Positions 36,203 through 39,955 of a DNA stretch of 64,000 nucleotides are shown piece by piece. How positions within the stretch are numbered: position 1 is the first letter of the stretch; the number at the start of each line of letters is the position of its first letter. The translations under genes and the position numbers were made by a program. This stretch comes from Candidatus Bacteroides pullicola (GTDB lineage: Bacteria > Bacteroidota > Bacteroidia > Bacteroidales > Bacteroidaceae): contig DXCV01000029.1 of the NCBI GenBank assembly GCA_019115825.1, positions 20,188-84,187 of the forward strand. Direction: 5' to 3'. A model generated the notes under the pieces. That model saw only the letters and a list, made by a program, of their open reading frames with translations, was not told the origin of the DNA and did no database searches.

Positions 36203-36274
36203 GCTCCGAGCAATTAGCCCCGAACTCACGTCATCAACCGTTGACCCTCTCCGCGTGTAGGAATATCGCCTTTA

Positions 36275-36297
36275 TTTATGTTCTTCAACCTATTCCC
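36275..36297. repeat. 23-bp perfect direct repeat, left copy
   Basis: TTTATGTTCTTCAACCTATTCCC, identical to 37134-37156. Confidence 0.9.
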
Positions 36298-36306
36298 AAC
36301 AAAAAG

Positions 36307-36345
36307 AACAGGCCAAGTAGGGAGAACCCCCGCTTGGCCTGTTTT
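36307..36345. terminator. Bidirectional terminator-like hairpin
   Basis: AACAGGCCAAG...CTTGGCCTGTT flanked by A5 and T4. Confidence 0.7.
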
Positions 36346-36348
36346 GAA

Positions 36349-37023
36349 TTACAACCGCTCGATGGATTCAGGAGTGAGGCCGGTATAACGTGCGATGGTT
36401 TCTATCGGCATAGCGTCTGCCTTCATACTACGGGCTACGTCAATTTTACCTTCCGCACGGCCTTTGACAAGACCTCTCGCTTCACCTCTCGCTTCGCCTT
36501 GCAACCGTTCATATTCCATTACGGCAAGCTGGTCGCGATAGACCTTGATGCTTTCATCGTACTTCAGGCGGTCTTCCTTGCTCAAGCCGGCAATATCCAC
36601 GATTTGCTCCAGCTTCTCAAATACGGCTTTTCGCGCCTTGAAAGGCAATCTCTGCAATATCTCCATATTCTTCAATACATAAATCCAACGTTCGAAATCA
36701 GTCTCACATTCATCTTCCTCTTTCGTAAACAGGGGAAGCTCAATAAAAATGTAGCGCATTTTGTCGCTAAACTGCTCGTGCGTGTCGCGGTCGGCAAGTA
36801 CGATGTCCGTACGCAGCTTGCACGGCAAGTTCGTCATGCTGAAATTGAGGAAGAAAACGCCGTAAACGGCTTTCAGGTCGAACTTCCAGTCCACGCCCTT
36901 TTCTCCCTAGCGTTCACCGTCCAGCAGGGCGTTGAGGAAGTCTATCAGCAGGTCTTTGTTTATTTCCTGTCCGAAGATGCGCTTGAAGCCCACATCGGTA
37001 AAAGGGTTTATGAACTTTGCCAT
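36349..37023 (-). pseudogene. Rpn family/PD-(D/E)XK nuclease transposase-like gene, decayed
   Basis: N-terminal MAKFINPFTDVGFKRIFGQEINKDLLIDFLNALLDGER, then in-frame TAG, then GEKGVDWKFDLKAVYGVFFLNF; the usual intervening segment with catalytic residues is missing. Confidence 0.85.
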
Positions 37024-37133
37024 GGTCTTTCTGCTTTTATTGATTTCATCGATGCAAAGTTAATGATTTCCCGGAAAATACAGAGAAATTACTATGGCAT
37101 TCTCTTTTTTCCGAGACAGAAATTATTTCGGTT

Positions 37134-37156
37134 TTTATGTTCTTCAACCTATTCCC
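37134..37156. repeat. 23-bp perfect direct repeat, right copy
   Basis: TTTATGTTCTTCAACCTATTCCC, identical to 36275-36297. Confidence 0.9.
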
Positions 37157-37177
37157 TGAAAAAATCCAAATTTTTCC

Positions 37178-37208
37178 TTTGTTTTCAGATTCATTCTCCG
37201 TACATTTG
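37178..37208 (+). promoter_or_regulatory. Bacteroidetes promoter upstream of the candidate ncRNA
   Basis: TTTG (37178-37181)-N19-TACATTTG (37201-37208). Confidence 0.8.
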
Positions 37209-37212
37209 CTGC

Positions 37213-37511
37213 GTCCTTACGGTTGTAAGGACAGACATATTGATACGAAGAGCGTTTAAGATATTATCCTGCATTGGAATCTGGACAATTTCATTGGTTA
37301 GGGATAATAGGCAAAACGCTCACGTCAGTGTTATATACCTACCTCATTGGGTAGAATATATAAAGTCTGGCGTGGGCTATTGTTTATTACCTAACCAAGG
37401 GCAGTCCAGAGCCTCAATGCGGTGATATACAATAGTTCCCACGCCTCTTTTTGTGTGTCTGTATTTGGGGGGGTAAACCGCTTACTTTGGGAACAGTGGG
37501 CACATTTTTTT
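37213..37511 (+). ncRNA. Candidate structured RNA (standalone ncRNA or long leader), family not identified
   Basis: Helices: GTCCTTAC/GTAAGGAC; ACAGACA/TGTCTGT closing stem; GAGCGTTT/AAACGCTC continuing to TATTATCC/GGATAATA; CTACC/GGTAG; GGCGTGGGCTATTGT/ACAATAGTTCCCACGCC followed by TCTTTTT; T7 at 37505-37511. Confidence 0.6.
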
Positions 37512-37516
37512 AACTT

Positions 37517-37825
37517 ATGATAGATAAAACAAAAATCATTTCAGAATTTATGAGTAAAGCGGCGCAAAGTAAAAACTGTTGCTTTGATGGCGGTACTCTA
37601 CTAAAAAACATTTGTGACATAAAGCGTATCAATGTTTGGAAGGTTGAAGAAGTCTCAGATGAAAAATACGACTTTCTCTTACATGGATGTGCAGAATTTT
37701 ATTATGCATTTGAAAATGATATTGTCAATGCTGAAACAGAAGATTTTAATGCAGAAGTAAAGATAGGAGAAGAAGGAGATAGCGTTGAAATCTATCGAAT
37801 AAATATAAGAAAAAGAGGTTACTAA
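37517..37825 (+). CDS. Hypothetical protein (AT-rich island)
   Basis: 102 aa ORF, AT-rich, no recognised family. Confidence 0.6.
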   Translation: MIDKTKIISEFMSKAAQSKNCCFDGGTLLKNICDIKRINVWKVEEVSDEKYDFLLHGCAEFYYAFENDIVNAETEDFNAEVKIGEEGDSVEIYRINIRKRGY

Positions 37826-37875
37826 AACAAATAGTACATCGAAAAATAATTCAACTTACTGATAAATAAATTGCT

Positions 37876-38727
37876 ATGCAAATAGATGTATTAAATAATG
37901 CAGAGGTTTATCGAATGAAAACTATTTTTTACAATATAAAAAGTAAAAAAAGATGGTTTTCTGGTGAAACCTATTATGAGGAATGTAAGGAGCGTACCTG
38001 TGATTACACTTTGAGAAATGGGAAAGTGATAGATAAAGAAGCCATTGATTTTGAAAACAATAAAATGATTAAAAGTGAAAGATATGAATTTGTAAATGGC
38101 TTGGTAACGAAAAAGCAAATTGTAATTCCTGGTGGTTTCCTAGAAGAGGAGACATTATTTTCGTATGATGATAATGAACATTTGCTGATGGAAGAAACAT
38201 ATAAAAATGGAGTATTGAGTAACCGTATATTATATAAATATAACAATATAGGAAAGATTACTTCCGAAACGGTATTTAAATACAAGGATGGAAGAATCTC
38301 AAAGACTGCAAAGGAGTGGATTTATGAGGGAAGAAAGGCAACGGTTATTTATTATTATACGAAAAAAACAAAAACTGAATATGAATATAATTCTATGGAT
38401 CGCTTGATTAAAGAGATTCGCTATTCTCCTGAGGGAGAGAAAATAATGCAAATTGACTATATCTATGATTCTGATGGTAGACTTTCAAGAAAAATCTATG
38501 ATAGACAATACGTTGATGAATTTCAACATGATAGATATGGAAATCTCACGTTGTATAAATGCTATCATAATTACGGATTAACATTTCTACCTTGGAATGA
38601 AAGAAGTGAAGTAATTTACTTACGAGATGAATATCGTTATGATACCCGTGGCAATTGGGTAGAAAATAAGCATTTCGTAAACAATACTTATACAAGTCGT
38701 ATGACGAGAGAAATCAAATACTTGTAA
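37876..38727 (+). CDS. Hypothetical YD/RHS-repeat-like protein
   Basis: 283 aa with repeating Y-x-Y-N/D-x-x-G-R/K pattern (YKYNNIGKITSE, YEYNSMDRLIKEI, YIYDSDGRLSRKI, YRYDTRGNWVE). Confidence 0.7.
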   Translation: MQIDVLNNAEVYRMKTIFYNIKSKKRWFSGETYYEECKERTCDYTLRNGKVIDKEAIDFENNKMIKSERYEFVNGLVTKKQIVIPGGFLEEETLFSYDDNEHLLMEETYKNGVLSNRILYKYNNIGKITSETVFKYKDGRISKTAKEWIYEGRKATVIYYYTKKTKTEYEYNSMDRLIKEIRYSPEGEKIMQIDYIYDSDGRLSRKIYDRQYVDEFQHDRYGNLTLYKCYHNYGLTFLPWNERSEVIYLRDEYRYDTRGNWVENKHFVNNTYTSRMTREIKYL

Positions 38728-38745
38728 CTTATAAAAGATTTTAAT

Positions 38746-39105
38746 ATGGAATTTACATTTGATGAGAAAGCCGCATGTTTCTATGCACTTGAAATAATTG
38801 GAGAATGTGATGGACAATTAACAGAAGAGGAAAAGGATTTATTAATTCACTTGATGTCCAGTAAGTTTGGAGTAACTTTTGATGATATGATATTAGGAGT
38901 CCATCTTAAATATCACGATGATAGAGATGCCGGAAAGGTATTGGGAAATATGCCCAAGGCCAAAAGGAATATATTTCAAGAAGCTATGGAAGAAATGGCG
39001 GGAATAGATCCAATGAATATTCATAAATGCATTGAACTCTATTATTTTTACAACAGCATAGGCATACACGCAGATTGGGAGAAAATGAAATCGCAAATTA
39101 GGTGA
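38746..39105 (+). CDS. Hypothetical TerB-like helical protein
   Basis: 119 aa; FYALEIIGECDGQLTEEEKDLLIHLM resembles TerB-like helical proteins. Confidence 0.55.
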   Translation: MEFTFDEKAACFYALEIIGECDGQLTEEEKDLLIHLMSSKFGVTFDDMILGVHLKYHDDRDAGKVLGNMPKAKRNIFQEAMEEMAGIDPMNIHKCIELYYFYNSIGIHADWEKMKSQIR

Positions 39106-39376
39106 AGAAGATTATGGAGAAATTCAGATGAAAAAGTACAAAGGAAATCATTCCTTATTTAATTAGATGAAAGATGAATATTCACAAGAGCAGTATTCAT
39201 AATGCTTGTGAGATGGTACAACATTTCATTGATGAATGAACGACTTTTTATCTGATGATTCGAAGCTTCATACTATTGAAGAATCAATCATATCAACTCC
39301 CTATATGCTTAGCCAAATATGCAAAAACTATTGCGGTCGAAGAATATGAGAAATAATATTAAAAAATAGACTAAAT

Positions 39377-39955
39377 ATGCAAGAAAAATACAATACATTT
39401 TTCGGAATTGGAAAGGGGGAAGCTTTCTATGACAAAAGGCGGCACTTGAACATTATATTCTTAGTGTGTGCAAATTATCAATTATTTGCCACTCCTGTAG
39501 CAGTAAATGAACTACGTCATTATGTACTTAATGAAACTACGGAGGTTAGCGCATCATATATACGCAATAATATATTGACTGTAGGCGAGTATAACTATTT
39601 GAATATGTTACGCGAACGCTACAACATTCCGATTAACGATTTTACAACTATACTGAGTGGTATAGGATTATTTAGCCTTAATTTCAAATCGCCATCGAAA
39701 TACTCCCCAAAAGAGGAAGCTAGGTTAATAATTCAAATGATGATTGCACGAAATTATATGCAGCCTCAAAAGATGGAAGCATTCAAAATTATAAACACAA
39801 TGATTTATAATTTAGGTCAAAATATAAATCTATTTAAGTCATTATCAACCTTTCATCAATATGAAAAACTTCTCTATGAAGCATCTTCCCATTATCCACA
39901 TGAGAAGTACATGGTTGAAATAGAAGAATACGTTTTACAACGTGTAAATATATAA
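39377..39955 (+). CDS. Hypothetical protein (AT-rich island)
   Basis: 192 aa ORF, no recognised family. Confidence 0.6.
   Translation: MQEKYNTFFGIGKGEAFYDKRRHLNIIFLVCANYQLFATPVAVNELRHYVLNETTEVSASYIRNNILTVGEYNYLNMLRERYNIPINDFTTILSGIGLFSLNFKSPSKYSPKEEARLIIQMMIARNYMQPQKMEAFKIINTMIYNLGQNINLFKSLSTFHQYEKLLYEASSHYPHEKYMVEIEEYVLQRVNI

Follow-up and report, generated by a model that had tools for sequence, protein, structure and literature searches.

A conserved structured RNA of Bacteroidota with the layout of a putative attenuating leader

Transcription attenuators of the trp type have three overlapping, mutually exclusive pairings, a promoter at the 5′ end and an intrinsic terminator just before the gene. 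The purine, lysine and cobalamin classes are transcriptional riboswitches with loop–loop kissing, in which a junction of kissing hairpins lies upstream of an expression platform with a terminator. GEMM (c-di-GMP-I) RNAs precede very diverse genes. In Bacteroidota, the DUF805 RNA (RF03081) and Flavo-1 (RF01705) are structured RNAs that also lie near diverse genes. For Bacteroides, a paper on RbpB (PMC11697453) describes the FopS/GibS RNAs as multicopy with a sigma-ABfr promoter, FopS RNAs being ∼65–70 nt long and not tied to a downstream gene, and lists BTnc020, BTnc054, BTnc075, BTnc172, BTnc213 and BTnc266 as paralogous B. thetaiotaomicron sRNAs adjoining transposases or invertases. A large microbiome screen reported 3161 candidate RNAs (PMC8040213).

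The window analysed here is a stretch of 64 000 nucleotides from Candidatus Bacteroides pullicola, and its positions 37201–37501 hold one copy of an RNA of roughly 290 bases that is structured, conserved and non-coding. This RNA shares all of the above features of trp-type attenuators but differs from them in that its core is non-coding, a kissing-loop junction is added and the controlled genes do not form one pathway. It shares the kissing-hairpin junction upstream of a terminator-bearing platform with the riboswitches named above and, unlike them, has no Rfam match and precedes very diverse genes. In Rfam 15 the best match in the window was MIR838, which scored 24.5 bits where the gathering score is 190, and no match was obtained over the RNA in 20 diverged loci, which bears out an earlier sequence-only reading in which the element was called unannotated. 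The DUF805 and Flavo-1 RNAs are separate elements, neither model of which matches. The same reading had kept a 6S-like RNA in play; 6S RNA, a free-standing rod with a central bubble (6S-Flavo, RF01685), gave no match in the Rfam search of the window, and the present RNA is multicopy and tied to downstream genes, so this option is not supported. Identity with FopS/GibS, RNAs that carry an R1 seed, was rejected on size and context, the terminated product here being ∼235 nt and tied to the downstream gene. The BTnc020-type RNAs (PMC11697453) are likewise paralogous and near mobile genes, as some copies here are near recombinases, and this six-member family may be the same RNA. Some copies may also already be present as anonymous models among the candidates of PMC8040213. 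No published description of the family was found in a literature search, most subscription journals lying outside its scope.

All parts of the window copy lie on the + strand. A promoter of the Bacteroidota primary-sigma type, TTTG-N19-TACATTTG, was identified at 37178–37208 from its sequence and from motif counts over the copies, and is followed at the predicted transcript start by a 5′ hairpin, GTCCTTAC-GGTT-GTAAGGAC (37213–37232). The sequence of this hairpin varies among copies while the hairpin itself tends to persist; the 40 nt after the promoter have a mean minimum free energy of −9.3 kcal mol−1 versus −6.1 kcal mol−1 after shuffling (72 copies). Region 1 consists of arm a (GAGCGTTT, 37250–37257) and arm b (37262–37269) and pairs with region 2 as a putative anti-antiterminator; arm a faces AAACGCTC at 37314–37321, and a second helix, TATTATCC/GGATAATA, adjoins this one. 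Then follow the 5′ strand of helix P1 (c2, 37271–37275; partner c2′, 37416–37420), hairpin H (37276–37292), the loop of which (CUGGAC, 37281–37286) kisses the loop of hairpin G, and the 5′ strand of helix P3 (d, 37294–37300), which is hypervariable yet complementary to d′ (37392–37398). Region 2 (b′, 37302–37309, and a′, 37314–37326) can pair with either region 1 or region 3. An apical hairpin e (37332–37362; CTACC/GGTAG in the window copy) caps P3. Region 3 (f, GGCGTGGGCTATTGT, 37369–37383) is the 5′ arm of the terminator, with a′ as its alternative, antiterminator partner, and is followed by d′ and by hairpin G (37400–37413; loop GUCCAG, 37404–37409), both placed by covariation, as was c2′. 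Region 4 (f′, ACAATAGTTCCCACGCC, 37429–37445) and a U-tract (TCTTTTT after the stem, to 37452) complete the predicted intrinsic terminator of the leader. Just 5′ of the start codon lies the region 5 hairpin (37480–37501, loop UUUGGGAACA), in which GGGAAC (37489–37494) complements GUUCCC of region 4 (37435–37440), and a run of seven T residues occupies 37505–37511. The first downstream gene, which is the putative controlled gene, encodes 102 residues without a family match (37517–37825) and is followed by ORFs at 37876–38727 (RHS repeat) and 38746–39105. The promoter, 5′ hairpin, helices, CTACC/GGTAG, TCTTTTT and T7 elements quoted in the sequence-only reading were all found in place; the covarying helices c2 and d, the kissing pair, the alternative a′/f pairing and the start-codon hairpin had been missed.

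Predicted folding of 37209–37515 gave z = −6.4, with none of 100 shuffled sequences equally stable. For comparison, 85 non-identical copies were gathered and 73 were aligned (A1). Mutual information ranked helix d (37294–37300/37392–37398), helix c (37280–37286/37404–37410), c2 and b at the top. With the terminator fold and its crossing helices 93.1% of the cells were paired, with 504 compensated cells against 154 after shuffling; the alternative fold gave 91.8% (480 against 149) and the junction with H, G and a 6 bp kissing pair gave 92.0% (447 against 139), in each case with 0/500 shuffles reaching the observed value; shuffles ignore relatedness, and slid controls, which retain it, fell to 28–54% paired. 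The claim of a structured RNA is thus upheld in many copies from relatives, in which compensatory changes preserve the helices, and on these sequences a conserved structured RNA is near certain.

Covariation supports a four-way junction formed by P1, hairpins H and G, and P3, in which the two hairpin loops kiss. All five pairs of P1 covary (83–93% paired; 95% in the short form described below), the H stem is 98% paired, and the kissing pairs are 97.5% paired with five of six covarying; among the diverged short-form copies the loop variants CUGGAC, CUCGAC, CUGGUA, CUGGAA and CUAGAC each occur with a matching partner, and the kissing architecture was present in 116/139 copies versus 7/139 resampled sequences. 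Helix d/d′ has the strongest covariation of the whole RNA. Hairpin e is 93% paired in its outer and 80% in its inner part (8/10 pairs covary). Since the stems of H and G each covary independently, c–c′ was reinterpreted as two kissing hairpins and not as part of a single long rod. The multi-branch junction proposed in the sequence-only reading is not supported, and its closing helix, ACAGACA/TGTCTGT, proved to be a chance match: standard pairs occur in 37% of the cells of the 72 other aligned sequences, and sliding the partner by 3 nt gives 36–49%. In three loci (L137, L112 and L064) an extra hairpin of ∼18 nt is inserted in the 3′ side of hairpin G, with the kissing loop intact or nearly so.

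The remaining pairings would compete. Arms a and b of region 1 are 91 and 95.5% paired, respectively, in the main alignment, with compensatory changes, pairing 2:3 is 98.5% and pairing 3:4 is 98.9% (98.4 and 98.6%, respectively, in the short form). Pairing 4:5 reaches 89.9%, with five of six pairs covarying (e.g. AGCUCC/GGAGCU and GGCUCA/UGAGCC); the region 5 stem is 73.8% paired, a value taken from few aligned cells, and region 5 is absent from part of the copies. RNAalifold chose the 2:3 fold, which was more stable than 1:2 plus 3:4 in 68/73 copies when pseudoknot terms were left out, by a median of 13.7 kcal mol−1 with the kissing pair not counted. Many distant copies, mainly at class level, have a short form with a core of ∼115–130 nt, in which hairpin e is much reduced, to a tight loop, and 2:3 folds locally into a tight hairpin. 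When 31 diverged copies of this form were aligned, with both structures read off one member, P1, H, the kissing loop, G, 2:3 and 3:4 were again supported, and the closing pair of H is A–U in 14 and U–A in 14. In the short form 1:2 is weaker than 2:3 and 3:4: a/a′ is 87% paired, helix b 63–67% and helix d 54.6% (A4 alignment), the poor values for b and d probably being due to misalignment; the d row is misaligned.

The position of the RNA relative to genes is fixed. The next gene is co-oriented in 135/139 copies (74/75 in the first set), with a median of 47 nt from the end of the core to the ATG, and upstream genes have mixed orientation. The motif TAnnTT[T/C]G occurs upstream of 125/135 copies versus 5% of random windows (19/358), in agreement with the canonical Bacteroidota promoter assigned to the RNA by the sequence-only reading, and TAnnTTTG lies between terminator and gene in only 3/135. 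A U-tract (at least five U residues in the 9 nt after the stem) follows the stem in 94% of copies versus 5% of windows taken another 30 nt downstream. The conserved features are thus the helices, the promoter, the U-tract, the orientation relative to the gene and the spacing from it. As for coding potential, 5/243 forward frames of the core are open and the spacing is not a multiple of three; an ORF that traverses the RNA in the window (36241–37425) was rejected as coding because its frames are closed in other copies. Position and orientation are thus nearly constant and a separate promoter motif for the gene is rare, as in a cis-regulatory leader. The sequence-only reading had left the choice between an ncRNA and a long leader; because of the co-oriented gene, the close ATG and the lack of an intervening promoter motif, the leader is clearly favoured over the free-standing RNA, and by these sequence criteria the RNA is very probably a cis leader of the following gene.

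As regards mechanism, a G+C-rich stem with a U-tract and a competing conserved pairing that shares region 3 are both present in the sequence, and the overlapping pairings 1:2, 2:3 and 3:4, all conserved, have the layout of a terminator/antiterminator attenuator. Our preferred reading, to which we assign a probability of roughly 0.6, is that the leader controls the co-oriented gene mainly by transcription attenuation; that the leader switches co-transcriptionally, which way it does so and that an effector exists are what we infer. RNA polymerase would start at the TAnnTTTG promoter and make the junction and kissing-loop domain (P1, H, P3 and G), with 1:2 forming first during transcription. In the terminator state, region 3 would pair with region 4 while region 2 is held by region 1, and an RNA of ∼235 nt would be released. 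In the readthrough state, region 3 would remain bound to region 2, so extending P3, and the gene would be transcribed; region 4, freed on readthrough, could then base-pair with the loop of the start-codon hairpin. An effector that tips the balance would probably bind or stabilize the conserved junction domain. It is also conceivable that a single pseudoknotted fold accommodates the junction together with 1:2 and 3:4; only a minor state would then be left for 2:3.

Since the start codon adjoins regions 4 and 5, control could instead be translational, or could act on RNA stability, with a ribosome or a protein such as the RRM protein RbpB deciding the outcome. The conserved region 5 hairpin and 4:5 pairing beside the ATG would suit such control, and RbpB binds RNA globally in Bacteroides (PMC11697453); the near-perfect 3:4 stem and the U-tract are terminator features that would be superfluous there, and we consider this reading unlikely. 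Similarly low odds attach to the short terminated RNA being the main product, namely a trans-acting multicopy sRNA family for which readthrough is incidental. The copy number in Bacteroides and the strong terminator speak for it, as does the six-member paralogous B. thetaiotaomicron sRNA family mentioned in PMC11697453, which lies beside transposases and invertases and carries the second RbpB-ligand motif. A trans-acting RNA, however, would need no ∼47 nt spacing to a co-oriented ATG, as seen in 135/139 copies; its start-codon hairpin would not be expected to pair with a terminator arm, nor its loops to kiss within the molecule instead of remaining free.

Two further explanations appear very improbable. 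One is a fixed structured 5′ UTR or insulator, i.e. a non-switching stabilizer of the mRNA or a stop for upstream readthrough, which would fit downstream genes without a shared function but leaves three competing pairings, kept across the order and beyond, without a role; in front of an insulator, moreover, a promoter would be needless. The other is a DNA element of mobile cassettes, either a folded single-strand recombination site or a conserved rAID intergenic motif. Recombinases directly upstream of roughly 15 of about 75 copies and cargo that differs between related loci point in this direction, whereas the majority of copies lack a recombinase next to them, arrays contain no repeats of the core, and the promoter, the U-tract and G–U-tolerant pairing indicate RNA.

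The genes behind the leader are diverse: 119 first genes match 74 unrelated Pfam families, the largest groups being lipocalin-like lipoproteins (seven), SusC/RagA TonB receptors (six), and BspA-type leucine-rich repeat proteins, β-barrels and DUF5640 proteins (five each), with single defence genes (ZorA and MmeI) and response regulators among the rest. No common function was found in Pfam, PADLOC or NCBIfam. N-terminal export signals, called by a simple, crude heuristic with homologous cargo weighted in full, occur in 52% of controlled genes versus 22% of neighbouring ORFs (odds ratio 3.9, p = 3 × 10−11). Because the controlled genes share no pathway, they suggest no effector. Sensing of a small molecule or messenger is a tentative idea. 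By analogy with GEMM and c-di-GMP, a new riboswitch-like class of Bacteroidota RNA might be envisaged, in which the kissing-loop four-way junction responds to some general signal, either a nucleotide second messenger or an envelope or stress metabolite, and sets the transcription of many horizontally variable surface and defence genes together; this is doubtful, and what the sequence shows is an aptamer-like junction and an expression platform. If the leader does switch, one undescribed RNA class would control outer-membrane receptors, surface lipoproteins, adhesin-like repeats, defence genes and mobile cargo, amounting to a common regulon of unexplored input in a phylum dominant in the human gut. 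With dozens of natural variants, a defined terminator and tractable hosts, the effector question is directly testable. For annotation, terminated RNAs of ∼235 nt that transcriptome maps record as sRNAs in their own right may belong to the following gene as its attenuated leader. At one locus (L157) two DUF805 RNAs (RF03081; 2190–2255 and 3154–3222) were observed, one directly between leader and gene and the other further downstream, so that a tandem arrangement of the two families does occur.

Many same-genus copies, several per genome, came up in a DNA search of 100 relatives, and an exact-pattern contig scan located 56 loci in Bacteroides, Phocaeicola, Parabacteroides, Prevotella, Tannerella and other Bacteroidales MAGs; a contig labelled as uncultured Clostridium (L081) holds an otherwise Bacteroides-like locus and is probably misbinned. 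Genome counts were made with a covariance model of the core (R1). Within the genus, 113/160 genomes gave matches, with as many as 15 copies per genome; matches were also obtained in 127/394 genomes and 74/206 genera of the order, and in 29/398 genomes drawn across the phylum, 25 of these being in the same class but outside the order and two outside the class; because the core is nearly self-complementary, R1 also scores the wrong strand, at 39.9 bits, so scores below about 45 bits are not to be trusted, and these underlie a minority of the genome counts. One partial match was found in a phage record. In several Bacteroides genomes (L065–L069, L071 and L078) the RNA lies between a gene for ∼140 residues (MLKTILSISGKPGLY...) and an ORF of ∼78 residues, an arrangement that is apparently vertically kept. 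The second good copy in the genome of the window (G000:C53:3410–3567, L204; 67 bits) has no clear ORF close downstream save a frame of ∼56 codons, perhaps a small or decayed gene.

A link to mobile elements, entertained in the sequence-only reading, exists for a subset of copies. A gene for a serine resolvase or a short tyrosine recombinase lies upstream of the RNA, its end ∼190 nt away, at roughly 15 of about 75 loci; a DUF3871 gene usually precedes it, and sometimes a RadC-like gene. The order DUF3871 (with or without a RadC-like JAB gene), serine or tyrosine recombinase, RNA and cargo was observed at L040–L045, L051, L057, L135 and L137; the DUF3871–recombinase loci are plausibly integrating elements, with the leader serving their cargo. 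Cargo differs among related loci, for example between the window and L039. Repetition of the core within gene arrays, as in rAID or attC, was not found, and an rAID (recombinase-associated) immunity array, in which a tyrosine recombinase precedes several short, co-oriented, low-GC genes separated by conserved motifs, was rejected for the window locus, which has co-oriented low-GC genes but neither a recombinase beside the RNA nor a repeat between genes.

In the window, the putative controlled gene opens a stretch of 28–33% GC, and the placement of the RNA at the edge of an AT-rich island is correct for this locus; it is not a property of the family, as GC content drops downstream in just 28/52 Bacteroidales copies (means of 0.43 upstream and 0.40 downstream). 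The low-GC stretch (37500–39955) carries co-oriented small ORFs including that of the RHS-repeat protein, and is flanked by a pyruvate:ferredoxin oxidoreductase-like gene and a DnaB-like helicase gene; the ORF at 38746–39105 resembles TerB-like cargo at other loci. Upstream, a 31 nt direct repeat (36275–36305 and 37134–37164, 90% identical) flanks a PDDEXK_2 (Rpn-type) transposase gene (36349–36894) that is apparently broken by an in-frame stop near its start.
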